A DNA stretch of 51,313 nucleotides from Arcicella aurantiaca (GTDB lineage Bacteria > Bacteroidota > Bacteroidia > Cytophagales > Spirosomataceae). The position numbers and the translations under genes were made by a program. The stretch's first letter is position 1; each line of letters starts with the position of its first letter. A model generated the notes under the pieces. It saw nothing but the letters and a program-made list of their open reading frames with translations, had not been told where the DNA came from and did no database searches. The stretch lies in assembly GCF_003148625.1 (NCBI RefSeq), contig NZ_QGGO01000002.1:37705-89017 (forward strand), read 5' to 3'. Of this stretch, positions 1 through 51,313 are shown piece by piece.

Positions 1-45
1 CATAAACCATAAACTCATAAACCATAAACTCATAAACCATAAACT
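1..45. repeat. 15-bp tandem repeat, three perfect copies
   Basis: Three identical copies of CATAAACCATAAACT run from the first base of the window to position 45, ten bases before the PPK2 stop codon. The array may continue beyond the window edge. It is one of the short-word intergenic patches that recur across this window; no reverse-complement half is visible here, possibly because it lies outside. Confidence 0.9.
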
Positions 46-55
46 CCCCAAAAAA

Positions 56-943
56 CTACTCCAAATTCTGCTCATTGATTCTGGCAATTAAACCTTGTAA
101 AACGGCTTGACGTTCGGGCGTACTTTCTGGGTATTCCATTTTCAATTCTTTCATCTTTTCCAAAATTATACTACTGATAATCAACCGCATATTCTTTTTA
201 TCATCGGCAGGAACTACATACCAAGGAGCATTTTTTGAAGCCGTCTCATTCACCATTTCTTCATAAGCTTTCTGATATTTTTTCCAAGAATCTCGCTCTT
301 TTACGTCGCCTTCTTCAAATTTCCAGTTTTTGGTTGGGTCTTGTATCCGTTCAATTAAACGTTCGGCTTGAACTTCTTTCGAGATATTCAAATAGAATTT
401 AAGAATAACCGTTCCGTTTCTTGATAGATATTTTTCGTAGTTATTAATATCTTCATAGCGTTGTTCCCAAACTTTATCTAAATCTTTGGTAAACTCAGCA
501 GGAATCTTTTGGTAATTTGTCAAGATTTCGGGGTGAACTTTCACCACCAATGTTTCTTCATAATACGAGCGGTTATGAATGACTAATTTTCCTCTTTCTG
601 GCATTTTGAGGGTATTTCTCCACATAAAATCATGGGCTAATTCTTGCTCAGACGGGCGTTTAAAACTATGTACCTCCACCCCTGCTGGATTCACGCCTGA
701 CAATACTGCTTTGATGGTACCGTCTTTACCCGCTGCATCAGAAGCTTGAAAAATCAGAAGCATCGAGTAACGGTCATGGGCGTACATAAGGCTTTGATAT
801 TTATCCATTTTATCATGGAGTTCAGCCATCAGTGTATTATAATCTTCTTCTGATTCATAAAAATCCTTAATTTTAGTATCAGATTTTTTAATATCTAATT
901 TTTTATCACCTGTAAATTCAAAATCTTTAATATCAATTTTCAT
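56..943 (-). CDS. ppk2: Polyphosphate kinase 2 (PPK2) family nucleotide phosphotransferase
   Basis: Cytoplasmic PPK2-family kinase that transfers phosphate between polyphosphate and nucleoside mono- or diphosphates. The 295-residue length fits a single-domain PPK2. A Walker A motif ASDAAGKDG lies at about residues 67-75, followed by the conserved FKRPSEQELAHDFMWR region, and the YEDINNYEKYLSRNGT and RIQDPTKNWKF segments match the later family core and lid. The AGKDG form of the P-loop (rather than AGKGG) is the one I associate with class III enzymes, which act on both AMP and ADP; that subclass is an inference. The gene stands alone, with a 180-bp gap to the divergent downstream gene. The N-terminal Lys/Asp-rich stretch (1-30) is typical. 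Confidence 0.95.
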   Translation of the reverse strand: MKIDIKDFEFTGDKKLDIKKSDTKIKDFYESEEDYNTLMAELHDKMDKYQSLMYAHDRYSMLLIFQASDAAGKDGTIKAVLSGVNPAGVEVHSFKRPSEQELAHDFMWRNTLKMPERGKLVIHNRSYYEETLVVKVHPEILTNYQKIPAEFTKDLDKVWEQRYEDINNYEKYLSRNGTVILKFYLNISKEVQAERLIERIQDPTKNWKFEEGDVKERDSWKKYQKAYEEMVNETASKNAPWYVVPADDKKNMRLIISSIILEKMKELKMEYPESTPERQAVLQGLIARINEQNLE

Positions 944-1123
944 ATTTTTGTTTTATTAAGTTAAATAATAGCGAACGAAAGGCGACTAATGAAAGCAAAT
1001 CAATTTGCTTTCTATTGAATTTGGCAAATATAGATACATAATCATATCACCACTTTTCATCAATCACATTTCACTTGTTATACATAAAAGCAATTTAACC
1101 AAAATTCTTAAACTTTTCTTACA

Positions 1124-1630
1124 ATGACTTTACGAGACATTTTTGCCAATATTTCCGCTAATCCTTCTTTGCTATTATGGTTTCTTTTGTGTGTACCCTT
1201 ATTGACATTCCTGAGTAGTATTTGGCAAAATCCAAATACGCCTCCGCAACAAAGTCCGAACCGTCATGTCTATGCTATTTTGGCTTATTTGGCGTGTATT
1301 CCCGGAATTTTTGCTATTACTTTAAATATGTATCTTTTCCTTTTTGAGCGTCAGAGCATTTGGGATATGAACCTTGTAACACAACTTTTACCAATCGTTA
1401 CGATGGTCGGAACGCTCATTATTATTAAACGAAATATTCCTTTTGAATACGTACCCGCTTTTGGTAAGTTATCGGGCTTTGTCACTTTGGTTTTTGCCAT
1501 GATTGGTATCATGTGGTTTGTAGATAGACTGCGTATATATGCCATTACTTACGTTCCCTTTCAGTATATCGCCATTGGTTTTATCGGAATGTTATTACTG
1601 ATTCGTTTTGGATGGAATAAGATGTTTTAA
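1124..1630 (+). CDS. Hypothetical integral membrane protein (about five TM helices)
   Basis: I do not recognise the family. The 168-residue product has hydrophobic stretches at about 14-32, 50-72, 85-101, 116-133 and 145-162, so it is an inner-membrane protein with about five helices. A short polar, proline-rich loop (NPNTPPQQSPNRH) follows the first helix and a basic motif (IKRNIPFEY) lies between the third and fourth. There is no signal peptide cleavage site or catalytic motif that I can see. It starts at an ATG at 1124 and is monocistronic, with a barrel protein gene 119 bp downstream on the same strand. Function unknown. Confidence 0.75.
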   Translation: MTLRDIFANISANPSLLLWFLLCVPLLTFLSSIWQNPNTPPQQSPNRHVYAILAYLACIPGIFAITLNMYLFLFERQSIWDMNLVTQLLPIVTMVGTLIIIKRNIPFEYVPAFGKLSGFVTLVFAMIGIMWFVDRLRIYAITYVPFQYIAIGFIGMLLLIRFGWNKMF

Positions 1631-1749
1631 ATATTAACATTTATTAATTTATTTCGGAAAGCAACATTTGTTAAGGTTGAGTTACAAAATTATCTCTTAT
1701 CTTTAAACGTATAAACTCTAAAGAGATGCCGCCACCTTAATCAATAAAT

Positions 1750-2418
1750 ATGCGTTTCCTCTATTCAACTATTGTTACGTTATTGTTATTTCAAAGTATT
1801 TTAAATGGTCAGACTAAAAAAGACCATTATATTTTTCATTTTGGGCTTCGTTCTGTTGATGTTCGTAGCGATAATTCCTTGCCCACCAGTTTCAAACCTG
1901 TTGTAGATGTGGGTTTTGGCATCAACTATCAACTTAGTAAAAATCTGCAATTTCAACCTGAAGTACGTTATACTCCACGTGGTTATCGAGCAAAAACTAA
2001 TCTTTCAGATTCTACTTTTATAAGCAATTCCTTATCATTACATTATCTTGATTTGTGTCCAAATTTCAATTATACTTTTGGAAATCCAGCTTATAGTTTT
2101 ACACATTTATCTGTTTGGGGAGGTCCATATTTAGGTATAGGTATTGTTGGGCAATCTGTTACGTCTGGAACAATCTTGAACAAAACCGAAACAAGAGCAG
2201 ATAGCACATTTTCACGAACAAACGCTACTTTTGGCAATGGACTAAACAGAATTGATTATGGCTTAAATCTTGGAATTGGCTTACAATTTGACCGTTTGGC
2301 TCAAGTTGGTATATCTTACAATATGGGCTTTAATAATGTTTCAAGTTTTGCATCTTCACCACTATACAATCAGTCTTGGGGCGTGTATGTGAGAGTTCTT
2401 TTTGATGAAATATTTTAA
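1750..2418 (+). CDS. PorT-like outer-membrane beta-barrel protein
   Basis: Secreted protein with an N-terminal signal peptide (residues 1-20, hydrophobic core LLLFQSILNGQ, likely cleavage after LNGQ). It is followed by alternating amphipathic beta strands typical of small eight-strand barrels: LQFQPEVRYTPRGYRA, LHYLDLCPNFNYTF, GGPYLGIGI, YGLNLGIGLQF and a C-terminal strand ending in an aromatic residue (VRVLFDEIF). The LQFQPEVRYTPRGYR segment is the signature of the outer membrane beta-barrel (PorT/OMP_b-brl_2) group in Bacteroidota. The partner or substrate is unknown. It converges on comM, sharing a strong bidirectional hairpin. Confidence 0.8.
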   Translation: MRFLYSTIVTLLLFQSILNGQTKKDHYIFHFGLRSVDVRSDNSLPTSFKPVVDVGFGINYQLSKNLQFQPEVRYTPRGYRAKTNLSDSTFISNSLSLHYLDLCPNFNYTFGNPAYSFTHLSVWGGPYLGIGIVGQSVTSGTILNKTETRADSTFSRTNATFGNGLNRIDYGLNLGIGLQFDRLAQVGISYNMGFNNVSSFASSPLYNQSWGVYVRVLFDEIF

Positions 2419-2423
2419 TTCAA

Positions 2424-2463
2424 TTGCTCGATGTTGACAGAATATTAGCCCAACATCGAGCAA
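2424..2463. terminator. Bidirectional hairpin terminator between convergent genes
   Basis: A perfect 13-bp stem (TTGCTCGATGTTG at 2424-2436 with its complement at 2451-2463) closes a 14-base loop. It occupies nearly all of the 51-bp gap between the barrel gene and comM, so it probably ends transcription from both sides. Confidence 0.8.
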
Positions 2464-2469
2464 CTAAAA

Positions 2470-4008
2470 TTATCCTGCCCAATTCTCTCTATCCAAACTT
2501 CTATACTGAATAGCTTCTGCGATATGTTCCGTTCTGATGTCTTCTGTCCCTGCCAAATCCGCAATCGTTCGGGCTACTCTCAAAATACGGTCATAAGCAC
2601 GAGCAGATAATTGTAACCGTTCCATAGCACGTTTCAGCAATAAATTACCAACTTCATTAATTACACAAATTTCTTTTACCATCTGAGAAGGCATCATGGC
2701 ATTAGAATATATTTCTGGAAAATCTTTAAATCTATTCGTCTGAATTTCACGAGCTTTAATCACTCTTTCTCTAATTTGTTCTGACGATTCCGATTTCCGA
2801 TTAGAAGATAATTGCTCAAATTTCACAGGCGTAACTTCTACGTGCAAATCAATTCTATCTAAAAGTGGGCCTGAAATTTTATTCAAATATTTTTGAACGA
2901 CTCCCGGTCCACAAACACATTCTTTATCGGGATGATTATAATATCCACAAGGGCAAGGATTCATACTGGCAATCAGCATAAAACTTGATGGAAATTCAAC
3001 TGCCCATCTTGCTCTTGAAATTGACACTTTTCTGTCCTCCAAAGGCTGACGCATCACTTCCAATGCCGTCTTTTTAAACTCTGGCAACTCGTCCAAAAAC
3101 AAAACGCCATTATGTGCCAAAGAGATTTCACCGGGTTGTGGATTACTCCCACCTCCTACCAAAGCAGCATCAGAAATAGTATGATGCGGAGAACGATACG
3201 GTCGGGTAGAAACCAAAGTGGCTTTTGTGCCTAATTTTCCAGCAACAGAATGAATTTTAGTTGTCTCTAATGCTTCATGAAGAGTAAGCGGTGGCAAAAT
3301 AGACGGAATACGCTTCGCCAACATGGTTTTCCCTGCTCCGGGAGGCCCAATCATAATGGCATTATGCCCACCTGCTGCGGCAATTTCTAAGGCTCTTTTT
3401 ATATTTTCTTGTCCTTGAACGTGAGAAAAATCGGCATCATAATCATTTTGAGAACTGGCAAAAATATCTCGTGTATCCGTAACTAAAGGTTCAATTTTCA
3501 GAGAACCTCTTAGAAAATCAATCGCTTCTTTTAAGTTTTTTACGCCGATAATATCCAAATTATTCACAATAGAAGCCTCCATTGCGTTTTCCGTAGGAAG
3601 AATAAAACCTTTAAATCCTCTTTTGCGGGCTTCAATAGCTATTGGCAAAACGCCTTTTATTGGGCGAAGCGACCCATCGAGGGCTAATTCTCCCATGATA
3701 ACGTAATTTTCTAATTCTTTCAAATTAGCTTGTACCGAAGCATGGACAATCCCCAAAGCAATGGGTAAATCATAAGCAGAACCCTCCTTACGAATATCCG
3801 CAGGGGCAAGATTTACGACAACTTTTGTTCTTGGAAAGAAATAACCGACTTGTTTAATGGCAGACTCCACTCGTTGTTCAGATTCTTTGACGGCTCCGTC
3901 TGGCAGTCCCACGATGTAGAAATGTTGTCCTTGTCCTTCGCTAACTTCCACAGTTATTATTGTAGCATCAACGCCGTGAACGGCACTTCCGAAGGTTTTA
4001 GCGAGCAT
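2470..4008 (-). CDS. comM: YifB/ComM family Mg-chelatase-like AAA ATPase
   Basis: Cytoplasmic hexameric helicase of the ComM/YifB family; in naturally transformable species ComM promotes branch migration of incoming DNA. The 512-residue length is typical. The N-terminal ChlI/Lon-like domain covers about 1-170, with the family marker [12 protein letters not shown]-like segment near 75-90. The AAA domain has Walker A GPPGAGKT at 221-228 and Walker [11 protein letters not shown] near 300. A cysteine-rich insert NPCPCGYYN...CVCGP lies near 350-370. A C-terminal Mg-chelatase domain carries the [18 protein letters not shown] signature. The start at 4008 is an ATG opening the conserved [16 protein letters not shown]-terminus. 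Monocistronic. Confidence 0.96.
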
Positions 4009-4182
4009 AGTTGCAGTGTTTTAAATGTTAAGAAATTTGTCAAATATACAAAGAAAATCACCTTGTCACAATCATTTTCCAAGAACTCAATCCACCACAA
4101 TTTGTATTGATATAAGGTAAACCAATCCAACAAAATGCCTATATTTGACTATCAATATCATTCAAAATTACTCGATTGAATC

Positions 4183-4932
4183 ATGCAAGTTGACCATTGG
4201 CAGTTTCTTCAAAATTATACTCCTGCACGTATCGCTCGTGGGCGGGCTGGTCATAGTTTTCCAACAAATGAACTCCTAAAATTTCAAGCAGACCACGCCC
4301 AAGCTCGTGATGCTGTTTATTCAACCCTTAATATTCCTGCATTATCAGAATCCCTACAATTGACTTTAGATTTACCAATCATTCACCTAAAAAGTGGTAT
4401 AGAAAATCGTTCTCAATATTTACAAAGACCTGATTTAGGGCGAACATTAAGCCAAGAGTCTCGGGAAGTCTTGCAGACGATGAAAGCAGAGGAGTCAGAT
4501 GTTTGTTTTGTCGTTACAGACGGACTTTCTGCTGAGGCTATCAATCAAAATATTGGTTCAGTTTTAGAAAATATTATAGCAAAACTCAATAAAATTAATT
4601 GGAAAATTGCATCTATTTGTCTTGTAGAACAGGGACGAGTGGCAGTTGCAGACGAGATTGGCTATCTACTAAAATCCAAAATTGTGGTAGTATTTATTGG
4701 TGAACGTCCAGGACTGACTTCCCCCAATAGTATGGGAGCGTATATCACTTTTAATCCTCAAGTAGGCATAACTGATGAGAGTAGAAATTGTGTATCCAAT
4801 ATCCGCCCTGAAGGCATGAATCCTGAAACAGCTTCTGATAAAATCATCTACCTTTTAAATGAAATGAAAGTAAAAAAGATAAGTGGAGTGCATTTGAAAG
4901 ATGAAGCAAATGACTCAAAATACTTGAATTAA
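4183..4932 (+). CDS. eutC: Ethanolamine ammonia-lyase small subunit (EutC), without eutB beside it
   Basis: Small subunit of the adenosylcobalamin-dependent ethanolamine ammonia-lyase, which splits ethanolamine into acetaldehyde and ammonia. At 249 residues it appears full length. Family signatures are visible: ARIARGRAGHSFPTNELLKF at the N-terminus, DHAQARDAVYSTL near 36-48, a VVTDGLSAEAI segment near 106, and the VVFIGERPGL...PNSMGAYITF and RNCVSNIRPEGM motifs near 165-205. EutC normally follows eutB directly, but the upstream neighbour here is comM on the opposite strand and the next gene is mntR, so eutB and any ethanolamine permease must lie elsewhere or be absent. The start is the ATG at 4183. 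Confidence 0.93.
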   Translation: MQVDHWQFLQNYTPARIARGRAGHSFPTNELLKFQADHAQARDAVYSTLNIPALSESLQLTLDLPIIHLKSGIENRSQYLQRPDLGRTLSQESREVLQTMKAEESDVCFVVTDGLSAEAINQNIGSVLENIIAKLNKINWKIASICLVEQGRVAVADEIGYLLKSKIVVVFIGERPGLTSPNSMGAYITFNPQVGITDESRNCVSNIRPEGMNPETASDKIIYLLNEMKVKKISGVHLKDEANDSKYLN

Positions 4933-5108
4933 CTCCTTAATTCTTAGTATTAGACTTTAAAATATTAATAGAAGAGTGTCAAATTGTTAATGTGAAAACA
5001 GAAAAAACATACTCATTCTTTTTTATCCTTTTTTTCATGCAACTGAGAAACAGAATTCTTTGCTCATGTAATTTTTGCTAAATTTAGGCAAGTTTTAGTC
5101 TTAATTAT

Positions 5109-5139
5109 CTTGCTTTCAAGTGCAGTTTTCCTATTTTTG
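5109..5139 (+). promoter_or_regulatory. Bacteroidota-type promoter with no protein gene downstream
   Basis: CTTG at 5109-5112 is followed after 19 bases by TATTTTTG at 5132-5139, a match to the TTTG-N19-TAnnTTTG pattern known for the housekeeping sigma factor of Bacteroidota. No ORF follows on this strand; the expected start near 5144 is only about 60 bases from a Rho-independent terminator. Confidence 0.55.
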
Positions 5140-5143
5140 TCAT

Positions 5144-5205
5144 GCGTTTTAATAACGCAAATTTTTTTGACCTAATAAAGTGGCGGCTTTATTAGGTCTT
5201 TTTTT
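5144..5205 (+). ncRNA. Candidate small RNA of about 62 nt
   Basis: Downstream of the promoter match, the predicted transcript contains a small hairpin (TGCGTT 5143-5148 with AACGCA 5154-5159). A short A/T-rich linker follows, then a 12-bp terminator hairpin (5169-5198) and seven T residues. No start codon with a useful frame exists in it. The combination of a promoter, two hairpins and a U-tract within 100 bp in the eutC-mntR gap suggests an independent sRNA. It has no homology to a class I recognise, so this is an inference from architecture only. Confidence 0.4.
5169..5205 (+). terminator. Rho-independent terminator, plus strand
   Basis: GACCTAATAAAG (5169-5180) pairs with CTTTATTAGGTC (5187-5198) around a TGGCGG loop, followed by seven T residues. 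The U-tract follows the hairpin only on the plus strand, so it does not primarily serve mntR, which is transcribed toward it from the other side. It may end either the candidate sRNA or read-through from eutC. Confidence 0.85.
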
Positions 5206-5223
5206 ATATCTATACGCACAGAA

Positions 5224-5883
5224 TTACTTCTTTTTGACTAAAATATTTTTGGCAACTTCGTGGCTAATAAAATAATTTGAGTTTCCTCCATTATTTATGG
5301 TCATTGATTTATCAAAATCATTGATTTCAATTATGGTAACATTCGCCCCTAAATTCATTCCAATTTTTGCCAAATATTGCAAAAAACTCGTTGAATGTTG
5401 TGCCACTCCCATCATCACTACCGTTTGATTAATGGCAATACCAGAGAGATTTTTATAACCTAATTCTGGCATTTTTCCATCTTTATCTGGAATTGGGTCA
5501 CCGTGTGGGTCAAACTGTGGATAATCTAAAAATTCATCTAAGCGTTGCACCAACTCTTCCGAATTGATATGTTCCAATTCTTCTGCAATTTCGTGTACTT
5601 CATCCCAATTGAACCCCAATTTATTCACTAAAAAAACCTCCCAAAGACGGTGCTTTCGGATAACCTTCAAAGCCACTTCTGCCCCTTTTTCAGTTAGTCG
5701 AACACCCTGATACTTTTGGTAACTCACCAACTGTTTTTCAGAAAGTTTTCTGAGCATATCAGTCACAGAAGCCGCCTTCGTTTGCGTCAGTTCTGCCACG
5801 GCATTGGTACTGATTTCGCTTTCTGTTTCAGCAGACAGTTTATAAATAATCTTTAAGTAGTTTTCTTCAGTAAATGAAATCAT
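5224..5883 (-). CDS. mntR: DtxR/MntR family metal-dependent transcriptional repressor
   Basis: Metal-responsive repressor, presumably sensing Mn(II) or Fe(II) and controlling the divergent Nramp transporter. The 219-residue protein has an N-terminal winged helix-turn-helix (about 1-60, with TKAASVTDMLRKLSEKQLVSY), a dimerisation/metal-binding domain (about 62-140, with KHRLWEVFLV, EIAEELEHI and the DPHGDPIPDKDG motif of the family), and a C-terminal FeoA/SH3-like domain (about 148-219). The DPHGDPIP segment is conserved in DtxR-type proteins. The start at 5883 is an ATG. Its 5' leader is about 115 nt and contains an inverted low-complexity repeat. An inverted-repeat operator lies between it and mntH. 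Confidence 0.92.
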   Translation of the reverse strand: MISFTEENYLKIIYKLSAETESEISTNAVAELTQTKAASVTDMLRKLSEKQLVSYQKYQGVRLTEKGAEVALKVIRKHRLWEVFLVNKLGFNWDEVHEIAEELEHINSEELVQRLDEFLDYPQFDPHGDPIPDKDGKMPELGYKNLSGIAINQTVVMMGVAQHSTSFLQYLAKIGMNLGANVTIIEINDFDKSMTINNGGNSNYFISHEVAKNILVKKK

Positions 5884-5892
5884 GACTTTGTG

Positions 5893-5996
5893 TTTAGGTA
5901 GTAGAAATTAGGTTTTAGGTTTTGGGAATTAGGTTTTAGAAATTAGATACCTAATCTTTAAAACCCTAAAACCTAAAACCCAACCCCTAATCCCAA
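5893..5996. repeat. Inverted low-complexity word repeat in the mntR leader
   Basis: A run built from the word TTAGGTTTT (TAGAAATTAGGTTTTAGG and variants, 5893-5950) is followed by a run of its reverse complement (CCTAAAACCTAAAACCC, 5951-5996). It can fold into a long imperfect hairpin. It lies between the mntR start codon and the predicted mntR -7 element, so it should be transcribed as the mntR 5' leader. Confidence 0.8.
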
Positions 5997-6003
5997 CAAT
6001 AAA

Positions 6004-6011: not shown

Positions 6012-6035
6012 TTATTTTTCAACATAATAAATAAA

Positions 6036-6053: not shown

Positions 6054-6059
6054 AAATAT

Positions 6060-7471: not shown

Positions 7472-7597
7472 ATAGACCACAGATGAAACGGACTATACTG
7501 ATTTTCGCTGATTTTTCTTGATTTTATCCGATTGTGTATCCCAGTGTAAATCTATAAAATCTGTTCAATCTATGGTCTAAATTTGTCTGCGACAAAT
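7472..7597. repeat. Intergenic inverted repeat, 'CCACAGATGAAACGG' family
   Basis: TAGACCACAGAT near 7473 pairs with ATCTATGGTCTA at 7568-7579 (one mismatch) around an A/T-rich interior containing repeated GATTTT-type words. A second hairpin (ATTTGTC/GACAAAT, 7581-7597) follows. The same words (CCCACA..TGAAACGGATTT and AAATCTGT.CAATCTGTGG) recur at 46367-46530, so this is a dispersed family. Confidence 0.65.
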
Positions 7598-8082: not shown

Positions 8083-8484
8083 ATGTTTCCAACCGTAAGC
8101 CCGAAAAAGACCTCAGAACGTAAAATACAACTACACAAAGAGGCACAAGCATATAAAAAAACGATTGATGGTCAGGTAAATGACCTCAAATCTGAAGCCG
8201 CTCGTATTGGCACAACCGCCCTCATTGTGGGTACGGCATTGGCAGGAGTTTATGTGATTTTTAGTTTATTTACCTCCGATTCTAAAAAGAAAAAAACAAC
8301 ACAAGTTGTCGTTGAAAATCCTAATTTACCTGTTGTTGTAAAGAAGGAAAAAGACAAAGAATCGTGGTTAGTTTCGTCAATCAAAAGCTATATGATTGCG
8401 TTTGTAATGGCAGTTGCCAAAGACAAAATCATGGAAGCATTGGCGATTTTAAAAGAAAATAATGACCCAAAATCTACTAAATAA
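8083..8484 (+). CDS. Hypothetical single-pass membrane protein overlapping the PcrB-like gene
   Basis: 133 residues. The N-terminal 45 residues are charged and helical (KKTSERKIQLHKEAQAYKK). One TM helix lies at about 46-66 (TTALIVGTALAGVYVIFSLF), followed by a lysine-rich segment (SKKKKTTQVV) and a second weakly hydrophobic helix near 97-110. I do not recognise the family, although similar small proteins follow Holin-X genes in Bacteroidota. The gene overlaps the next start by 23 bp, which suggests translational coupling with the prenyltransferase. Confidence 0.7.
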   Translation: MFPTVSPKKTSERKIQLHKEAQAYKKTIDGQVNDLKSEAARIGTTALIVGTALAGVYVIFSLFTSDSKKKKTTQVVVENPNLPVVVKKEKDKESWLVSSIKSYMIAFVMAVAKDKIMEALAILKENNDPKSTK

Positions 8485-9208
8485 CCTTTACGAACGAAAA
8501 GCTCAAGGTCAAAAATCTTTTGCCGTTTTGATTGACCCCGACAAAGTAAATCTTGATAACTTTTCTAACTTATTGAATCTCTGCACGGAATATGGTGCTG
8601 ATTATATCTTCGTGGGTGGCAGTTTGATTACTAATTATGTAATTTCAGAAGTGATTGCCCAAATAAAAAGAGAAACGAATATTCCCGTTATTTTATTTCC
8701 GGGAAATAGCCTTCACATTGACGTACAAGCAGATGCCATTTTGTTGTTATCTTTAATTTCGGGTAGAAATCCAGAGTTTTTGATTGGACAACACGTTATT
8801 TCAGCCCCTCTTTTACGGAAAAGTGGTTTAGAAATTCTCCCAACAGGTTATATGCTAATTGATAGCGGAAAGCCAACAACGGTTTCTTATATCTCCAACA
8901 CAACACCCATTCCACACGATAAAGCAGGGATTGCCGCCTGTACCGCAATGGCTGGAGAAATGTTAGGATTAAAATTGACTTATCTTGATGCGGGTTCGGG
9001 AGCGATGAATCCTGTTTCGCCAGAAATGATTGCGGCAGTCAGACAATCTGTCGATACGCCAATCATTGTAGGTGGGGGAATCAATACCGCTAAAAAAGCA
9101 AAAAATGCCCTTTCAGCGGGTGCTGATGTCATTGTGGTAGGCAATGGTATTGAGCAAAATATTGATTTATTGAAAGAAATAGCTATATCAGTGAACAGTT
9201 ATCAGTGA
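8462..9208 (+). CDS. Geranylgeranylglyceryl/heptaprenylglyceryl phosphate synthase family (PcrB-like)
   Basis: TIM-barrel prenyltransferase that joins sn-glycerol-1-phosphate to a polyprenyl diphosphate, the ether-lipid reaction known from archaea and also present in many Bacteroidota. Signatures are FAVLIDPDKVN near 20-30, FVGGSLITNY near 51, VILFPGN near 75-81, TYLDAGSGAMNPV near 171-183, and the phosphate-binding IIVGGGINTAKKA and VGNGIE motifs near 197-228. The product of 248 residues is complete. The last residues (ISVNSYQ) are encoded by the first unit of the downstream word repeat, which also supplies the stop codon. Substrate chain length cannot be read from the sequence. Confidence 0.92.
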   Translation: MTQNLLNNLYERKAQGQKSFAVLIDPDKVNLDNFSNLLNLCTEYGADYIFVGGSLITNYVISEVIAQIKRETNIPVILFPGNSLHIDVQADAILLLSLISGRNPEFLIGQHVISAPLLRKSGLEILPTGYMLIDSGKPTTVSYISNTTPIPHDKAGIAACTAMAGEMLGLKLTYLDAGSGAMNPVSPEMIAAVRQSVDTPIIVGGGINTAKKAKNALSAGADVIVVGNGIEQNIDLLKEIAISVNSYQ

Positions 9209-9443
9209 ACAGTTATCAGTTAACAGTAAGCAGTTATCAGTAGCTTTAATTTGGTAATTGTTCGATGATAATTGATTCATTGAAAGAAATAAATTTGACA
9301 GTGAACAGTTATCAGTAGCTTTAATTTGGTAATTGTTCGATGATAATTGATTTATTGAAAAAAATAAATTTGACAGTGAACAGTAAACAGTTATTAGTAA
9401 TTTTATTGTTCACTGATAACTGTTCACTGATAACTGCCAACTG
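9188..9443. repeat. 75-bp tandem repeat plus inverted word repeat between convergent genes
   Basis: The gap from the PcrB-like stop to the gdh stop is filled by the word GTGAACAGTTATCA. A 75-bp unit occurs at 9231-9305 and 9306-9380 with a partial third copy from 9381. The left arm (25 bases, 9196-9220) has an exact complement within 9406-9436, so the whole gap can fold. The 75-bp unit contains GATT(T/C)ATTGAAAGAAATA, which also occurs as codons near the end of the PcrB-like gene (about 9164-9182), so the repeat seems to have captured coding sequence. Confidence 0.9.
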
Positions 9444-15602: not shown

Positions 15603-15924
15603 AAATAAAATTTAGCGAATTAGCGATAAGCGAATGGCGATAAGTTGAGTATAGAATCGCTATCCACTAATTACATTTCGCTATCAATAAACTAATTTGC
15701 GTTTCAGAACGTTAAATATAAAATAAATACAATTTATTTACTTGCAAAGGTCATACTTTTATTGCACTTTTGCACGCTTTTTGTAGGAATACTTGGCAAT
15801 CGATTATCAGTAATCGGGTGTCAATTTCTGAAACAATTTGCCCCAGAAAATTTTTAAAATCCAATAGCCGAAAGCTAAAAGCTGAAAGCTATACTAACAA
15901 ACAATTTATGCTTTTTAGCTTAGG
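15603..15924. repeat. Intergenic region with inverted word repeat (GCGATAAGCGAAT family)
   Basis: The mpl-proximal half (15603-15690) is a word patch: GCGAATTAGCGATAAGCGAA..GCGATAAG, followed by reverse-complement-like words ATCGCTATCC..ATTTCGCTATC. A second small patch at 15865-15893 repeats GAAAGCTAAAAGCTGAAAGCT. Between them is A/T-rich sequence that must hold the speA promoter, but I see no exact TAnnTTTG with a good -33 partner. Confidence 0.6.
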
Positions 15925-27235: not shown

Positions 27236-27333
27236 AAGGGTGAACGGTACACAGCGAACGGTAGTTTTCAAAACAGAAATACGGAAAATTTACCGTCAAA
27301 TCCGTTTACCTTTTACCGTTCACCATTCACCGT
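27236..27333. repeat. Inverted word repeat (GTGAACGGTA family) upstream of the Fur gene
   Basis: Left part GGTGAACGGTACACAGCGAACGGTAG, right part ACCTTTTACCGTTCACCATTCACCG (each written here only in part). They are reverse-complement-like and flank an A/T-rich centre. The patch fills the gap from the membrane-protein stop to just before the Fur start, so it would form the leader of the Fur mRNA. Confidence 0.75.
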
Positions 27334-30624: not shown

Positions 30625-30737
30625 CGCTTCTTGATATTTTAAATATGGTGATTAGGTATTGGTAATTAGAAAATTGGTAAAATGCTTATTTCTAATTTAT
30701 CATTCTCTTGAAAATTTATTTAAAATATCAAGAAGCG
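30625..30737. terminator. Terminator with a 20-bp perfect stem and a word repeat in its loop
   Basis: CGCTTCTTGATATTTTAAAT (30625-30644) is perfectly complementary to 30718-30737, which is followed by TTTTTT. The 73-base loop consists of GGTAATTAG-type words followed by CTAATTTATC-type reverse-complement words. The terminator thus looks as if a low-complexity patch had grown inside its loop. Confidence 0.8.
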
Positions 30738-40082: not shown

Positions 40083-40227
40083 GAGAATAGGTTCATAGAG
40101 AATAGATTATAGAGAATAGAGAATAGAGAATAGAGAATAGAGAATAGAGAATAGAGAATAGAGATTTGGTTTTAGAAGTTACGAGGTATTAATCTAACAT
40201 CTATTATCTAATCTCTATTATCTAACA
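40083..40227. repeat. AGAGAATAG tandem array and reverse-complement tail
   Basis: Seven to nine copies of a 9-bp word (GAGAATAGA) run from about 40083 to 40165. They are followed by TTATCTAATCTCTATTATCTAAC-type words (shown in part), the imperfect reverse complement. The patch fills the gap from the lipoprotein stop (40074) to the convergent GIN-protein stop (40228). Confidence 0.9.
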
Positions 40228-46200: not shown

Positions 46201-46299
46201 GAAAGACGTTCGAGAAGAGCAATGATTCCTTCAGCAATGAACTCGCCAGAGGCATTTGAAGAATGGATGGAAGAAGAAGGTTTGGAAGGGAAGAAGTAG
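43255..46299 (+). CDS. Secreted BNR/sortilin-type beta-propeller protein
   Basis: 1014-residue secreted protein with signal MKNRILLCVGLALTFSVNAQ. It contains multiple BNR/Asp-box motifs (S-x-D-x-G-x-T-W), for example SEDGGKTWQHKG near 155-166, TTDGGKTWKQT, STNGGDTWTLI, SEDGGKSWKRT, SKDGGYTWAKIS and STDYGTTWQKLG, consistent with two propeller domains of the VPS10/glycosyl-hydrolase 33-like type. Two insertions rich in lysine and glutamate lie near 320-360. The C-terminal region (about 830-1014) is non-propeller, with a FlgD-like strand pattern (GKTKVTIATDKGLVL, AGINTVVWNYTI) and a charged end. Substrate unknown; no sorting domain of type IX secretion is obvious. Confidence 0.87.
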   Translation: MKNRILLCVGLALTFSVNAQKKKKETPTPLINQSLNKTTATERLKALEIRKALEAKSLVNNVKFRSIGPTVMSGRVVDVDVNNQNPTEFYVAYASGGLWKTENNGISFSSLFDNEAVMTIGDIAVDWKTNGKTIWIGTGEANSSRSSYAGVGMYKSEDGGKTWQHKGLNETHHIGKVILHPTDPNTVWVAALGSLYSANKERGLFKTTDGGKTWKQTLFIDENTGGIDLTIDPSNPNTLYAGMWYKTRSAWNFVESGRTTGVYKSTNGGDTWTLITGESSGFPQGDGNGRVGVGISPKNPNIVYAVLDNQKNRPDDGKKKEEDNLLTAKKLRSMNSEQFLALSENQISEYLDEKRFPEKYTAKSLKADIKVGKIQVMDIVKFTENANDDLFDTPITGAEVYRSEDGGKSWKRTHKDYLDWVFNTYGYYFGTVFVAPDNADKIVIPGYQLVKSDDGGKTFQSMNAENVHADHHIVWINPTNSKHQILGNDGGINITYDDGKTWFKANTPAVGQLYALQVDMAKPYNVYAGLQDNGVWFGSSTNKPNYEWYAEGAYPFKSIMGGDGMQIAVDTRDNQTVYTGFQFGNYFKLNTANGSQKYLQMPQEVGEVKNRFNWQSPILLSRHNQDIIYFGGNRFFRSLDKGETWKALSGDLTKGGKEGDVPFGTLTTIDESPLKFGLLYVGTDDGLIHISKDGGYTWAKISDGLPQNLWVSRVNTSNHAEGTVYVSLNGYRDDHFNSYVYRSTDYGTTWQKLGEDLPAEPVNVVKEDPKNPNLLYVGTDHSLYISVNQGKSFMRMSGNMPAVAVHDLIVHPRDNELVVGTHGRSIYIADVSLVQQLTDSLMNKDLHLFTMKTINLNPRWGKVDASRKYDEPEKREYFISYFTKNTGKTKVTIATDKGLVLKELSDDSEAGINTVVWNYTINPAVVTDYEKHLNDTKKKDDKAIKVEEGEDKAFYIKAGKYKITFETANGVKSEKDFEIKTPERRSRRAMIPSAMNSPEAFEEWMEEEGLEGKK

Positions 46300-46544
46300 A
46301 TTGGTGAATGGTTATTAGTGAATGGAAACTGGCATTAATCAGACAATCTACTGTTTATCGCAAAGCAAAATAGCCCACAAGTGAAACGGATTTAACAAGT
46401 TTTAGGCTCAGCTTCCCGAAAGTTTGACCCCTAACGGAGTTATTTCGGGAAGCTCCTATTCCTATAAGTTATTTCATTCTCTATAACTCTGTGGAAATCA
46501 GTTAAATCTGTACAATCTGTGGGCTATTTTAAATCTTAATTTCA
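46300..46544. repeat. Word-repeat region with nested hairpins after the propeller gene
   Basis: TTGGTGAATGGTTATTAGTGAATGG (in part, 46302-46326) is a short word run. Then AAAATAGCCCACA (46367-46379) pairs perfectly with 46518-46530, enclosing words shared with 7472-7597. Nested inside is the terminator-like hairpin AGCTTCCCGAAA (46410-46421) with TTTCGGGAAGCT (46443-46454), whose stem matches the one at 17739-17772. Confidence 0.75.
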
Positions 46545-47615
46545 TTAAATTCTGCTCAAAATCTCTGCACCGATAGCATCAGTACCCAAAATCATATCTT
46601 TTGGCGTATCTTTGGTAGCGATGTCACCTGTACGGAAACCTGCTTTCAATACTGCATCTACTGCTGCGATTACGGCATTTGCTTCTTCTTTCAAGCCAAA
46701 AGAAATATCTAACAACAACGCTGCTGACAATACAGAAGCCATTGGGTTAGCTAAACCTTTTCCTGCAATATCGTGTGCAGAACCGTGAATTGGCTCATAA
46801 ACACCTGTACTGTCTCCAACTGAAGCTGAAGCTAACATTCCCATTGAACCTGCAATTTGAGAAGCCTCGTCAGTCAAAATATCTCCAAACAAGTTTCCTG
46901 TAACTACTACGTCAAATTGTTTTGGGTCTTTGATTAACATCATCGCTGCCGAATCTACAAATTGGTGTGTAACCTCTACTTCTGGATATTCTGGAGCAAT
47001 GGCTTGTACAGTTTCTCTCCACAAACGACTTGATTCCAATACGTTTGCTTTATCAACTGACATTAATTTTTTACCACGAGTCATGGCTGCTTCGAATGCT
47101 TTACGGGCAATACGTTCAACTTCGTATTTGCTATAAATCATGGTATCGTAAGCGGTATTTCCGTCTTCGATTCTTTCTCTTTTTCCGAAGTAAACATCTC
47201 CTGTTAATTCACGGAAGAAAAGAATATCTGCTCCTTTCAAAATTTCTGGCTTGATAGAAGATGCTTCTAACAATTCATCAAATAATTTGATTGGACGAAG
47301 GTTTGCGTATAAGCCTAATTCTTTACGCATTTTCAATAAACCTTGCTCTGGACGAACTTTTGCGTGTGGGTCGTTATCGTATTTGATGTGTCCAACTGCT
47401 CCGAAAAGGATAGCATCAGAAGCACGCATTTTTACTAATGTTTCTTCTGGAAGTGGGTCGCCTGTTGCTTCAATTGCTACGTGACCGATAAGAGCTTCGT
47501 CATACGTAAATTCATGTCCGAATTTCGCTGCGATTTTCTCTAAAACTTGTTTACCAACGGTTGTTACTTCTTGCCCAATTCCGTCACCTGGGACTACTAA
47601 GATATGTTTTTTCAT
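46545..47615 (-). CDS. leuB: 3-isopropylmalate dehydrogenase
   Basis: NAD-dependent decarboxylating dehydrogenase of leucine biosynthesis, 356 residues. Motifs: VVPGDGIGQEVT near 6-17, LFGAVGHIKYDN near 71 with the substrate-binding Lys, LLKMRKELGLYANLRPIKLF near 92-111, FFRELTGDVYFGKRE near 132, VDKANVLESSRLWRE near 191, DEASQIAGSMGMLASAS near 248-264, and YEPIHGSAHDIAGKGLANP near 270-288. It is transcribed last of the leucine-type genes in the window, after leuD and the synthase, with a four-helix-bundle gene in between. Confidence 0.97.
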   Translation of the reverse strand: MKKHILVVPGDGIGQEVTTVGKQVLEKIAAKFGHEFTYDEALIGHVAIEATGDPLPEETLVKMRASDAILFGAVGHIKYDNDPHAKVRPEQGLLKMRKELGLYANLRPIKLFDELLEASSIKPEILKGADILFFRELTGDVYFGKRERIEDGNTAYDTMIYSKYEVERIARKAFEAAMTRGKKLMSVDKANVLESSRLWRETVQAIAPEYPEVEVTHQFVDSAAMMLIKDPKQFDVVVTGNLFGDILTDEASQIAGSMGMLASASVGDSTGVYEPIHGSAHDIAGKGLANPMASVLSAALLLDISFGLKEEANAVIAAVDAVLKAGFRTGDIATKDTPKDMILGTDAIGAEILSRI

Positions 47616-47631
47616 TTTTTTTATTTTTGAG

Positions 47632-47795
47632 GGACAAAGGAACAGAGGGGTAAAGGAGCAAAGTGATTTTGAGGGACGGGGAATTTAAGGAACAAGGTGA
47701 CAAAGTGTTTGCTACACTTAACATCGCTTGCTGTACTTCCACTTTGTTTCTTTGCTACTCCGCTACTTTTCTCACTTCACTCCTCTGCTTCTTTG
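47632..47795. repeat. Word-repeat patch (GGAGCAAAG family), left flank of the IVP gene
   Basis: GGGACAAAGGAACAGAGG-type words (47632-47710), including GGAGCAAAGT at 47655-47664, are followed by reverse-complement words such as CACTTTGTTTCTTTGC and CACTCCTCTGCTTCTTTG (47735-47800). The same dialect fills the other flank at 48190-48346. Confidence 0.85.
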
Positions 47796-48179
47796 TTACT
47801 TAACTCCTCCCTCTTTTCTAATTTTCAATTTTTGTATTAAACTTGATAACATTCTGTCAATCTCACGACTTTTTTCAAAAATTATTTCAAAGTCTGCTTG
47901 ACCGATAAATTCTAAATTTAATGCTATCTCTATTTGTGTTTGTAATTCAAATAAAGACCCAACTGCAATGTTTAAGAACCGCAAATAATCTCCTGTTGAT
48001 TGGCGACCAAAACCTTCTGCAATATTACTTGGAATGGATATGGCTGCTCTACGAATTTGTGATGTCAATCCGTATTGTTCTTGAACAGGAAAAGACCGTG
48101 ATTTAAGGTATATTTCAGTAACCAAGACCATTGATTTCTGCCAAACCAGTAAATCTCGATGCGTTCTAATTGGGTGCAT
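47796..48179 (-). CDS. Four-helix bundle (23S rRNA intervening sequence/S23-type) protein
   Basis: 127-residue four-helix bundle protein of the family named after ORFs in 23S rRNA intervening sequences. Signatures: HRDLLVWQKSMVLVTEIY near 7-24, the highly conserved QEQYGLTSQIRRAAISIPSN near 33-52, IAEGFGRQSTGDYLRFLNIA near 53-72, and SLFELQTQIEIAL near 75. It is not inside an rRNA gene here but between leuB and the synthase gene. The fold is shared with Avd proteins of diversity-generating retroelements, but no reverse transcriptase is in this window. Both flanks are filled by one word repeat. Function unknown. Confidence 0.93.
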   Translation of the reverse strand: MHPIRTHRDLLVWQKSMVLVTEIYLKSRSFPVQEQYGLTSQIRRAAISIPSNIAEGFGRQSTGDYLRFLNIAVGSLFELQTQIEIALNLEFIGQADFEIIFEKSREIDRMLSSLIQKLKIRKEGGVK

Positions 48180-48189
48180 ATTTTGTTTT

Positions 48190-48346
48190 TTGTTATGTAA
48201 GTGGCAAAGGAGCGAAGGAGCAAAGTTATAGAATCTCCTTGTCTATTAATTTCAAACGCTATTACTTTACTGCTCTATTCATTTGACACTTTGCTACTTC
48301 AAACGTCATATCTTTGCTCCTCTGTTCCTTTGACACTTTGCTACTT
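48190..48346. repeat. Word-repeat patch (GGAGCAAAG family), right flank of the IVP gene
   Basis: GTGGCAAAGGAGCGAAGGAG begins it (48201 onward, with GGAGCAAAGT at 48217-48226), then reverse-complement words follow. An exact 18-bp direct repeat TTTGACACTTTGCTACTT occurs at 48282-48299 and 48329-48346. The second copy overlaps the stop codon of the synthase gene (48345-48347). Confidence 0.9.
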
Positions 48347-49856
48347 AAATCAAATTAAGCATTTTCTGCGTTGCAATGATAGCCGAAACAGTTTGGTCGG
48401 AGTCAAGTCCACGAGTTTTTAAACTTCTACCATTATATGCCCAAGTAATAATCGTCTCACAAAGGGCATCGGTTTTTCCTCCTGGTGGAATCCTTACGGC
48501 ATAGTCCGTCAGTTGTGGAAGTTCGATATTCTTTTGACAATATATCTTTTTCAAAGCATTCATAAAGGCATCGTATTGTCCGTCGCCTTGAGCAGATTCT
48601 TCAAAAATTTCTTCGCCAATTTGTACTTGTAAAGTGGCAGAAGGTTTTAGATTTTTAGAATGTGTCAAAACGTAATTCAGTACGACAACTTTTTCTTCAA
48701 TGGCACTACTATCCAAAATATCCGAAATAATATACGGCAAATCTTCACGAGTAACGGCTTCTTTGCGGTCGCCTAATTCAATGATTCTTTGCGTAACTTT
48801 TTTCAAATCGGCATCGGCTAAAGTGATTCCTAATTCTTGCAAATTTTTCTCAATATTTGCTTTTCCAGAGGTTTTCCCTAAAGCGTATTGACGCAATCGA
48901 CCGAAACGTTCGGGCATCAAATTATTGAAATAAAGATTCTTCTTATTGTCTCCATCTGCATGAATTCCAGCCGTTTGCGTAAATACATTTTCACCCACAA
49001 CTGGCTTATTCACTGGAATTCTGAAACCCGAGAAAGTCTCTACCAATTTACTGACCGAATACAATGATTTCTCAACAACTGCCGTTTTTACATCAGGCAT
49101 AAAGTCATTGATAACCGCAATGGTACTTGCCAAAGGTGCGTTTCCTGCACGTTCACCCATACCATTTACGGTTAAGTGCAAGCCTTGTACCCCCGCACGA
49201 ATAGCCTCCATTACGTTGGCAATGCTTAAATCATAGTCGTTATGAGCATGAAAATCGAAATGCGTATTTGGATAACGCTTTACGATAGCATCTAAGAAAT
49301 CAAAGGTTTCTCTCGGAGTCAAAACGCCCAAAGTATCAGGCAAAAGCACTCTTTTGATGGGTTCTTTGGTCAAGAAATCAAGGTATTGAAAAACGTATTC
49401 GGGAGAATTACGCATTCCATTACTCCAATCTTCTAAATACACATTACATAAAATGTCCTTTGAACGTGCTAAAGCAATTACCTGTGCGATTTCAGAAAAG
49501 TGTTGTTCGGGCGTTTTTTTCAATTGGTGCGTCAGGTGATTCAATGAACCTTTTGTGAGAAGATTCATCACTTTCGCCCCTGCTTCCAACATCCAGTTTA
49601 CAGAAGTTTCGCCATCAACGAAAGTCAAAACTTCTATTTTATCCAAACAATCATTCTCCGCTGCCCATTCTGTAATTTTTTTCACCGCATCAAATTCTCC
49701 CGCAGAAACTCTTGCAGAAGCCACCTCTAATCTATCCACCATTACTTCTTTTAAAAGTAACTGAGCAATCGTTAGTTTTTCAGAAGCCGAAAAAGACACT
49801 CCGCTGGTTTGTTCACCATCACGGAGTGTCGTGTCCATTATTTCGATATGTCGCAT
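48345..49856 (-). CDS. 2-isopropylmalate/citramalate synthase family
   Basis: Acyl-CoA condensing enzyme with a DRE-TIM barrel and a C-terminal LeuA allosteric domain. The ATG at 49856 gives 503 residues; a TTG two codons upstream is less likely. The hallmark IMDTTLRDGEQTSGVSF opens the protein, LLPDTLGVLTPRETFDF lies near 175-191, and the metal-binding FHAHNDYDLSIANVMEAI near 202-219 contains the two His. NGMGERAGNAPLASTIAV near 232 and TAGIHADGDNK near 290 follow. The regulatory domain covers about 390-503. Residues alone do not separate leucine (acetyl-CoA plus ketoisovalerate) from citramalate (pyruvate) activity, so I give no symbol; operon context favours a branched-chain role. Confidence 0.9.
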   Translation of the reverse strand: MRHIEIMDTTLRDGEQTSGVSFSASEKLTIAQLLLKEVMVDRLEVASARVSAGEFDAVKKITEWAAENDCLDKIEVLTFVDGETSVNWMLEAGAKVMNLLTKGSLNHLTHQLKKTPEQHFSEIAQVIALARSKDILCNVYLEDWSNGMRNSPEYVFQYLDFLTKEPIKRVLLPDTLGVLTPRETFDFLDAIVKRYPNTHFDFHAHNDYDLSIANVMEAIRAGVQGLHLTVNGMGERAGNAPLASTIAVINDFMPDVKTAVVEKSLYSVSKLVETFSGFRIPVNKPVVGENVFTQTAGIHADGDNKKNLYFNNLMPERFGRLRQYALGKTSGKANIEKNLQELGITLADADLKKVTQRIIELGDRKEAVTREDLPYIISDILDSSAIEEKVVVLNYVLTHSKNLKPSATLQVQIGEEIFEESAQGDGQYDAFMNALKKIYCQKNIELPQLTDYAVRIPPGGKTDALCETIITWAYNGRSLKTRGLDSDQTVSAIIATQKMLNLI

Positions 49857-49862
49857 ATTCAA

Positions 49863-50018
49863 TTGTGAATGAGCGAATGATGAGTTATGAATTGTGAATT
49901 GTGAGTTGTGAATTATGATTGTGAATTTTTTATGAGTTTTTTCTCATAAATTAATAGTTCACTACTCATAATTTACTGCTCATTAACTCTCAACTCACAA
50001 CTCACAATTCACAACTTC
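49863..50018. repeat. Word-repeat patch (ATTGTGAATT family) between leuD and the synthase gene
   Basis: ATTGTGAATGAGCGAATG and repeated GAATTGTGAATTGTGAG words (49863-49925) are followed by CTCAACTCACAACTCACAA-type reverse complements (49965-50015). The gap of 156 bp is filled completely, from six bases after the synthase start to the base before the leuD stop codon. A small inner hairpin (TATGAG..CTCATA) lies at the centre. Confidence 0.9.
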
Positions 50019-50630
50019 TTAATAAAGACTCTTCTCTGCAAATGTTGCAATTTCACCTTTCATGCTTTGTAGATAATCAATATCATCAAAGCCATTGAGC
50101 ATATTGTGTTTTTTGTATCCATTGATGTCGAAACCTTCGCTTTCGCCAGTGGCAACAATTACAACTTTTTGCTCAGGAAGGTTTACTTCGATTTCAGCTT
50201 TTGGGTCAGCTTCGATAGCAGAGAAAATTTTGTGTAAAAATTCTGGGCTAACAGTTACTGGCAAAATACCGATATTCAAGGAGTTACCTTTGAAAATATC
50301 TGCAAAGAAACTTGAAATTACACAACGGAAACCGTAGTCATAAATCGCCCAAGCAGCGTGTTCACGGCTTGAACCTGAACCGAAGTTACGACCACCCACC
50401 AAGATTGAACGGGGCGACCCTTCGTCTGAGTAAGTTGGGTTGTTCAACACAAAATCTTGTTTTGGAGATTCGTCGTTGTTATAACGCCAGTCTCTGAATA
50501 AATTATCGCCAAAACCTTCACGTTTCGTAGCTTTCAAGAAACGAGCAGGAATGATTTGGTCAGTATCGACATTTTCTATTGGAAGTGGCACTGCTGTCGA
50601 ACGAAGTACCGTAAATTTATCGTATGCCAT
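50019..50630 (-). CDS. leuD: 3-isopropylmalate dehydratase small subunit
   Basis: Small subunit of isopropylmalate isomerase. From the ATG at 50630 the product is 203 residues, opening MAYDKFTVLRSTAVPLP. A longer frame to 50699 is just translation of repeat DNA. Motifs: VPLPIENVDTDQIIPARFLK near 14-33, GFGDNLFRDWRY near 38, and the swivelling-domain GGRNFGSGSSREHAAWAIYDYGF near 79-101. FFADIFKGNSLNIGILPV follows near 108-125. leuC is presumably just beyond the window, past the GxxExxY gene. Confidence 0.96.
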   Translation of the reverse strand: MAYDKFTVLRSTAVPLPIENVDTDQIIPARFLKATKREGFGDNLFRDWRYNNDESPKQDFVLNNPTYSDEGSPRSILVGGRNFGSGSSREHAAWAIYDYGFRCVISSFFADIFKGNSLNIGILPVTVSPEFLHKIFSAIEADPKAEIEVNLPEQKVVIVATGESEGFDINGYKKHNMLNGFDDIDYLQSMKGEIATFAEKSLY

Positions 50631-50639
50631 TATTTTATT

Positions 50640-50775
50640 GTTTAACCGCAAGGACGCTATGTCGCAAGGTTTTTTCACCGCAAAGAGACTATGACGCAAG
50701 AATTTAAATAAATTAGCGTACTTCCGTCCTTGTGGTTATTTTAATTTCTTAGCGTTTTTCCGTCTTTACGATTGA
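50640..50775. repeat. Word-repeat patch (ACCGCAAGGACGC family), left flank of the GxxExxY gene
   Basis: The 24-bp sequence at 50645-50668, starting ACCGCAAGGACGCTATG, matches the one at 51181-51204 at 22 of 24 positions. A second, shorter copy ACCGCAAAGAGACTATGACG follows at 50679. After A/T-rich sequence come reverse-complement words (CGTACTTCCGTCCTTGTGGTT, in part). The patch starts ten bases upstream of the leuD start. Confidence 0.9.
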
Positions 50776-50781
50776 AATTTA

Positions 50782-51168
50782 TTAGTAATTATTTACAAAT
50801 CTTCTAAAACCACTTTTGATAATTGGGACATTAAAATTTATTAGAAACCCTAAACGTTTATCAGCCAATTTTAAATATGAAATTATTTGTGCTTCATGAA
50901 TTGGAAGTAAAGTATCCAGGGCTTTTAACTCCAAAATAATCTCTTTTTCTACCAAAATATCTATTCTAAAATCTTTCGATAATGAAAAACCTTTATAATC
51001 TAAAGGAATTGATACTTGACTTTCAGTGAAAATATTTCTGAGTTGTAATTCTTTCATTAAGCATAATTCATAAACAGATTCCAATAAGCCTGGTCCCATT
51101 ATCTTATGAACTTCCAAAGAAGCAAAAAATACTTCTTTTGCAATTCTTTCATATTCTTCTTTTGACAT
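50782..51168 (-). CDS. GxxExxY family protein
   Basis: 128-residue protein with the family-defining GLLESVY motif near 28-34 (in GPGLLESVYELCLMKEL). The later LDYKGFSLSKDFRIDILVEKEIILELKA segment, about 56-83, has a D-x(n)-E-x-K pattern (FRIDILV..IILELKA) consistent with a PD-(D/E)XK-type nuclease fold; activity is not established. It opens YERIAKEVFFASLEVHKIMG. The gene sits between leuD and the rest of the operon with the ACCGCAAGGACGC repeat on both sides. Such genes are frequent small insertions in Bacteroidota operons. Confidence 0.92.
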   Translation of the reverse strand: MSKEEYERIAKEVFFASLEVHKIMGPGLLESVYELCLMKELQLRNIFTESQVSIPLDYKGFSLSKDFRIDILVEKEIILELKALDTLLPIHEAQIISYLKLADKRLGFLINFNVPIIKSGFRRFVNNY

Positions 51169-51172
51169 GATT

Positions 51173-51313
51173 AGTTTTTTACCGCAAGCACGCTATGACG
51201 CAAGATTTTTAATGTCCTGTCTTTACGGTTTATTTTTTTTAGCGTCCTCTCTGTCTTAGCGGTGATTCTATTTTTTTAACGTCCTCCCCCTCTTAGCGGT
51301 GATTCTATTTTTT
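51173..51313. repeat. Word-repeat patch (ACCGCAAGGACGC family), right flank of the GxxExxY gene
   Basis: ACCGCAAGCACGCTATGACG (51181-51200) opens the patch. CTTTACGG and two copies of a unit ending CTTAGCGGTGATTCTATTTTTT follow (51259-51281 and 51293-51313, written in part), with TAGCGTCCTCTCTG/TAACGTCCTCCCCC between them. It runs to the window end and may continue. Confidence 0.85.

Follow-up and report, generated by a model that had tools for sequence, protein, structure and literature searches.

Certain intervening sequences (IVSs) of 23S rRNA carry an S23 gene within a stem-loop excised by RNase III (PMC4990558, citing Ralph and McClelland 1993), and in the IVS examined in that paper the S23 gene is immediately preceded by tandem heptamers, two or three of them depending on the strain. 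Genes of this kind, named 23S_rRNA_IVP, also occur in rRNA insertions of bacteria of the Candidate Phyla Radiation (PMC11270868). Short iterated words have been described separately from intergenic DNA, for example TAACTGA heptamers in Beggiatoaceae, Cyanobacteria and Bacteroidetes (PMC4679880), GGGAATC in Xanthomonas and GGGGA(C/T)T in Nostoc (PMC4692102), and paired heptamers or octamers on opposite strands in Geobacter (PMC2700814), with 70 and 75 convergent inverted pairs in two Xanthomonas genomes. The term S23 is absent from the main texts of PMC4679880, PMC4692102 and PMC2700814, and a search of main texts, mainly open-access, found no paper that connects repeats of this kind with S23 or GxxExxY genes standing on their own. 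Here we analyse a 51,313-nucleotide stretch of the 5.93 Mb genome of Arcicella aurantiaca (the window; positions 37705-89017 of contig C2, NZ_QGGO01000002.1), in which intergenic word arrays flank an S23 gene and a GxxExxY gene. These arrays are probably the arms of small elements that have inserted into intergenic gaps and are built like 23S rRNA IVSs.

The S23 gene of the window (47796..48179, minus strand) encodes a four-helix-bundle 23S rRNA intervening-sequence protein (PF05635, E 1.3e-38; TIGR02436; solved relatives 2gsc and 2rld) and is the cargo of an element (L126) between leuB and leuA. Its downstream arm, at 47632..47795, consists of AAAGGAGC-like words and their reverse complement (inverted 1/300, tandem 11/500), while the upstream arm, at 48190..48346, extends to the leuA stop codon (inverted 0/300, tandem 3/500); the two flanks are inverted relative to one another beyond 100 of 100 shuffles. 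The cargo of the second element is a GxxExxY (PDDEXK_3) nuclease-family gene (50782..51168, minus strand; PF13366, E 6.3e-38; TIGR04256). Its downstream arm of CCGCAAGGACGC-like words (50640..50775; inverted 2/300) is kept in genome G005, and its upstream arm (51173..51313) is truncated by the window edge and alone not significant, yet the arms have one common word, at 50647 and 51183, that 0/100 shuffles match. That two pairs of same-word patches each enclose a small gene had been missed in the original prediction, made from the letters of the window. The fractions given here and below as inverted and tandem count dinucleotide-preserving shuffles of each stretch, exactly as first delimited, that reach the observed self reverse-complementarity (300 shuffles, passed at ≤3) or tandem iteration at lags of 6-9 (500 shuffles, passed at ≤5).

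Several traits of these elements are those of IVSs. Like some IVSs they carry an S23 gene, with 12 PF05635 genes in this genome; their terminal inverted repeats pair into a stem that leaves the gene in its loop, as judged from the flanks of 71/95 loci and the fold of one element; tandem heptamers beside the S23 gene, as in the IVS of PMC4990558, match the layout seen here; and presence is sporadic at a fixed site. They differ in lying outside the 16S and 23S rRNA genes, between protein genes and often within operons (the window copy between leuB and leuA), in having arms of iterated words that differ by locus, and in that one further cargo family, perhaps two, shares the same layout. The published intergenic heptamers resemble the arrays in their runs of 7-8 nt units, their indels in 7-nt steps and some convergent inverted pairs; they differ in that those reports follow one or few words per genome.

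S23 and GxxExxY genes lie between inverted arms well beyond the window. Profile searches found 12 S23 and three GxxExxY genes in the A. aurantiaca genome, and by eye the S23 genes mostly have a G-rich run of words on one side and its C-rich reverse complement on the other, the word differing by locus (for example, TTTAGG, TTTATGAG, GTAGGCAGT, CAGTGAACAGT, GAGAATAG and GTGAATTGTGA). Flanks were scored by local alignment of the 200 bases upstream with the reverse complement of the 200 bases downstream, against 100 shuffles, for 95 S23 genes from this genome and 24 relatives; these were drawn from 115 rows, of which 20 were dropped as fragments, weak matches or two of three neighbours at G002:C171. 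Local alignment was used instead of an earlier 7-mer coverage score that was noisy (22/95 above the 99% null). The mean score was 18.5 versus 9.0 for shuffles (n = 95), and 0/100 shuffles reached the observed score at 71/95 genes (≤5/100 at 77/95), including 8 of the 12 own-genome genes. Arms swapped between loci scored 9.3 within a genome (502 pairings) and 9.1 between genomes (538 pairings), close to shuffles, indicating a locus-specific match between flanks. For GxxExxY genes taken from whole genomes, 16/27 loci passed, three of 30 having been dropped for short or masked flanks.

The association was also recovered without reference to gene function. In a scan of 1441 genes with a score of 16 taken as high, this score was reached by 22/34 S23 or GxxExxY genes versus 11/1407 others, including 1/213 other ORFs (open reading frames) of 90-160 amino acids (Fisher p 4e-32, which overstates the true weight because many of the scanned genomes are related). 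At 80 named Bacteroidota loci chosen for leuA only, which belong to the same 1441-gene set and are not independent of the scan, 14/18 S23 and 8/10 GxxExxY genes passed the shuffle test. The leu clusters of these loci (L043-L122) are a frequent site, with S23 in 14/80 and GxxExxY in 9/80 within the sequence covered at each.

The arms have a period and a polarity. S23 flanks repeat at 7 nt (observed/expected 1.26 at 7, 1.17 at 14 and 1.14 at 21), compared with 1.06 at 7 for all gene flanks of the contig, and GxxExxY flanks show a weaker period of 8-9 nt (1.08 and 1.10). The 5' arm has G>C in 64/71 S23 loci, and in 11/12 of a wider Bacteroidota set with one tie; for GxxExxY it has G>C in 9/17 loci and the reverse in four. 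A median of 49 nt separates the arm end from the S23 start. When the RNA of one element (L133) was folded, the arms paired with the S23 gene in the loop, and 0/100 shuffles folded as well (z -3.1).

The same junctions are empty, filled or filled differently in related genomes. Within one genus, the leuB|leuA junction measures 8 bp and lacks an array in G007, and in the window it is occupied by S23 with AAAGGAGC-like words; GxxExxY genes are present there with ACGAAGGC-like words in G004 and G005, CCAAG-like words in G006 and CACAGAG-like words in G003. At leuA|leuD, gene-less arrays have related words in the window (GTGAATT), G005 (ATGAATG) and G007 (ATGAATT), while those of G001 and G006 are unrelated (TTTCGGC-like and CACAGAG-like). 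The original prediction had anticipated such differences in word between the same flanking genes, as well as differences in copy number, and both are borne out, the latter by GAGAATA, which stands 9x forward at 40083 in the window and 1x in G005. Elsewhere in the genome, the sequence pieces used to compare the L131 junction are ~716 bp apart (by construction) versus 219-359 bp in 8/8 relatives. The L127 junction holds a gene-less array with a different word in G003 and no insert in G006 and G007, in which the lead of the next gene follows directly on the upstream stop codon; AAATA(G/A)TGG (9 bp) stands on both sides of the L127 element and once in the empty site, and by eye is a candidate target duplication. 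At L128 the element is absent in G003, G007 and G008, and G004 and G005 have another insert between GGATT-type arms. The G004 insert encodes an HNH-like protein whose best model is IscB, below cut-off. With the short ORF and HNH-like gene enclosed by GGATT-type arms at this junction (L290 99-750, L291), there may be a third kind of cargo.

Once present, insertions appear mostly to be kept and inherited, as 20 of 21 S23 pairs with at least 70% protein identity are at the same site. The exception, L172/L175, has 81% identity and occupies two distinct sites, each of which by eye has TTGGTAA-like words. Words drift between orthologous loci. Concerted evolution of the two arms was considered and is not claimed (within-locus 17.2 versus between-ortholog 16.2, n = 24, p = 0.11). 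An internal stop interrupts 5/95 S23 copies, and genes with internal stops or split matches (G002:C265:30327-30586, L149, L155, L165, L188 and L200) seem to be cargo decaying between its arms.

S23 genes exceeded cut-off in 74/99 Bacteroidota genomes (own included), with no match in 14 control genomes. Inverted flanks extend to plasmids of other phyla: among 16 S23 records sampled from 42, 11 had inverted flanks at 0/200 shuffles, comprising Cyanobacteria (three Nostoc, Anabaena, Pseudanabaena, Geminocystis, Calothrix, Stanieria and Leptolyngbya), Gemmatirosa (Gemmatimonadota) and Azospirillum (Alphaproteobacteria). Their words again differ, GGGAGTA, GGGAACA, AAAAGCT and GGGTGTA among them. 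In the plasmid GxxExxY sample (four of seven records), arms seen by eye were CGCGAAG-like in Sphingomonas, CACAGAGA-like in Bernardetia and CGCAGAGG-like in Gemmatirosa, and weakly visible in Fusobacteriota. On three cyanobacterial plasmids (L305, L307 and L309) the S23 gene lies among cas genes, twice as cas6|S23|cas4 and once as cas10|S23|cmr3, with word arms at 0/200 shuffles in L305 and L307 and 1/200 in L309. A survey counts 18 S23-type (23S_rRNA_IVP) genes in cas loci (PMC3936711), and word-armed S23 genes between plasmid cas genes may explain such reports.

The original prediction held that gaps throughout the window are filled with a repeated word and its reverse complement. For most stretches the inverted half of this stood, self reverse-complementarity exceeding chance in 10/14 (those starting at 5893, 7472, 9188, 27236, 40083, 46302, 47632, 48190, 49863 and 50640), and tandem iteration did so in 6/14 (5893, 9188, 27236, 40083, 48190 and 49863). 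Four stretches (1-45, 15603-15690, 30645-30717 and 51173-51313) passed neither test, 1-45 being truncated by the window edge and present in a single orientation only. The repeat unit is mostly 7 nt, and the arrays adjoin stop and start codons. In 349 kb of the contig, tandem iteration exceeded all 100 shuffles in 18/202 gaps of at least 60 bp versus 1/202 length-matched coding stretches, with lag 7 accounting for 13 of the 18 gaps, and both tests were positive in 12/202 gaps versus 0/202 coding stretches. Inverted repeats by themselves were found in 84/202 gaps versus 1/202 coding stretches; as these gaps will include plain terminators, the inverted test by itself is little proof. The further claim that every gap has its own word was right in part: 23 of 47 array units in the genome have no partner, but a CAGTTAT-like and a TTTAGG-like family recur in five units each. 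The remaining units pair up, several of the pairs combining both arms, or overlapping stretches, of a single locus.

Taken as inserted elements, each unit would begin with repeats of a 7-9 nt word and end with their reverse complements, with at most one small gene in between. The cargo would be an S23 four-helix-bundle protein, a GxxExxY nuclease-family protein or, at one junction, the HNH-like gene, and the transcribed element could fold with the cargo gene in its loop, as in a 23S rRNA IVS. Insertion rather than loss is presumed at most sites, the direction being unrooted. On the sole grounds of a similar style of word, two word families in common and the use of the same junctions, the ORF-less arrays are probably relics or gene-less forms of the elements. 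Arrays may persist in intergenic gaps since a hairpin there would do little harm, local slippage may add and remove word copies and so alter copy number, and the cargo protein may aid movement or persistence of the element. More tentatively, and with rather less confidence than we place in the reading of the arrays as arms, S23 and GxxExxY proteins could be functional components of mobile elements that have locus-specific word arms and form a widespread class not yet described; rRNA IVSs would then be the particular case of insertion into rRNA, and most intergenic heptamers in Bacteroidota, Cyanobacteria and other groups would be arms and relics of such elements.

A number of results weigh against reading the arrays as arms of inserted elements. 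Four of the 12 own S23 genes fall short of beating every shuffle: at L129 both flanks carry the word in one and the same direction, L131 does not pass the test, and L132 and L136 are matched by 1/100 and 9/100 shuffles. In the wider Bacteroidota, only 12 of 29 new S23 loci pass at 0/100 and 17 at ≤5/100, a weaker result than near the window. The majority of ORF-less arrays are not linked directly to any cargo gene, inspection by eye gave a possible target duplication at L127 and at none of the other junctions compared, and the 21 close S23 pairs include no fresh jump within a genome. In addition, 12/29 Y1 transposase genes pass the inverted-flank test (one of 30 loci dropped for short or masked flanks), by eye with single REP-like palindromes, and 11 genes of other kinds reach a score of 16; inverted flanks by themselves are therefore not unique to S23 and GxxExxY.

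The original prediction attributed the arrays to a process acting locally, in which fold-back copying or hairpin-templated expansion seeds a new word in each gap; S23-type genes would then have entered existing hairpins later. Such a process accords with words that vary by locus, mostly without recurrence, with the word CAGTGAACAG at L134, which by eye resembles an extension of the host gene's last codons, with the gene 3'-end copies within the 9188 array and with the differing copy number at 40083. However, word, polarity and period are common to the gene-bearing loci, arms and cargo are missing jointly at clean empty sites (for example, L127, L128 and L131), two word families recur at several loci, and the arrays flank particular small genes in several phyla. 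Purely local fold-back thus gains no support as the main account, and we consider this explanation unlikely. Selection could instead maintain the arrays as hairpins of ordinary function (as terminators, signals at mRNA ends or regulatory signals) with the small genes as chance neighbours, consistent with inverted repeats in 84/202 gaps and with the way arrays adjoin stop and start codons. Terminators, however, lack an iterated 7-nt word, the array is wholly absent at the same junction in related strains, and the flanks of the 1407 other genes seldom match, leaving this already disfavoured explanation very improbable.

A gene between inverted repeats, with dispersed repeats elsewhere, is also the layout of repetitive extragenic palindromic (REP) sequences and bacterial interspersed mosaic elements (BIMEs) with their REP-associated tyrosine transposase (RAYT). 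The arrays share that layout but differ in having an iterated word specific to the locus and a cargo that is not a Y1 transposase. Remnants of ordinary transposons, whether miniature inverted-repeat transposable elements (MITEs) or REP elements mobilised by a Y1 (RAYT) transposase, would agree with the inverted layout and with the seven Y1-family matches in the genome, yet the arrays have no fixed terminal sequence in common and Y1 flanks are single REP-like palindromes rather than word runs (29/30 loci, by eye), so that this origin is scarcely credible. The claim that the pattern is neither REP/BIME nor CRISPR (clustered regularly interspaced short palindromic repeats) has held up. No one palindromic word family extends across loci, the two recurrent families having five of 47 units each and most others being single or paired, and by eye array-type repeats do not flank the Y1 genes (29/30 loci). 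The constant terminal inverted repeats of MITEs and insertion sequences are lacking, arms of different loci in one genome scoring on average 9.3 versus 9.0 shuffled, and by eye the words vary and abut without spacers, where a CRISPR has identical repeats and unique spacers.

Y1/RAYT transposases were considered as movers of the elements and rejected, as their inverted flanks (12/29) are by eye of another kind. Several Y1 genes of relatives (L235, L236, L252, L255 and others) have long REP-like palindromes on their flanks. A route through reverse transcription was likewise set aside, as no link was found. Avd of diversity-generating retroelements is a weak relative of the window S23 protein (NF033474, E 8e-5; PF22296, E 6e-5; both below cut-off), and such retroelements pair Avd with their own reverse transcriptase; here S23 is below the Avd cut-off, and of two reverse transcriptase matches the one read is retron-like (the other lies at C4:101377). 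The retron-like gene, at G000:C2:35358-35993 (L323) just left of the window, best fits retron models, below their cut-offs.

If the arrays are arms of inserted elements, two puzzles would be joined, namely why many bacteria have intergenic heptamer runs and what role the S23 protein has in IVSs. The unit of arms and gene is testable and found in several phyla, and natural pairs of empty and filled sites allow study of how it inserts. Caution is also warranted for S23 genes within operons and cas loci, which may have inserted there without belonging to the systems concerned.

The remaining arrays of the window are without ORFs, and the window has no Rfam match and no tRNA detected by ARAGORN. 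At leuA|leuD, 49863..50018 is a GTGAATT run with its reverse complement (tandem 0/500, inverted 0/300), and 40083..40227 is built of GAGAATA words (tandem 0/500, inverted 0/300). The array at 9188..9443 has CAGTGAACAGTTAT words (tandem 2/500, inverted 0/300) and contains copies of the upstream gene's 3' end; in 9161-9401, the 3' end of the gene at 8462-9208 is present twice more downstream, inside 75-nt direct repeats, with the CAGTGAACAG word. TTAGGTT words at 5893..5996 (tandem 1/500, inverted 0/300) belong to the family of the L127 arm, and the junction of the GTGAACGGT words at 27236..27333 (tandem 0/500, inverted 2/300) has another insert in G005. Two patches passed the inverted test alone. 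The first, 7472..7597, has AGATT-type words (inverted 1/300, tandem 59/500) that by eye resemble those flanking the GxxExxY gene L123, and the second, 46302..46530, has outer TGAATGG and inner GGATT/AGATT-type words (inverted 0/300, tandem 18/500) and is replaced in G005 by a 0.9-kb ORF-bearing insert. A weak, borderline patch of TTGGTAAT words lies at 30645..30717 (inverted 14/300, tandem 80/500), and its junction in G005 has ACAGATT-type words.

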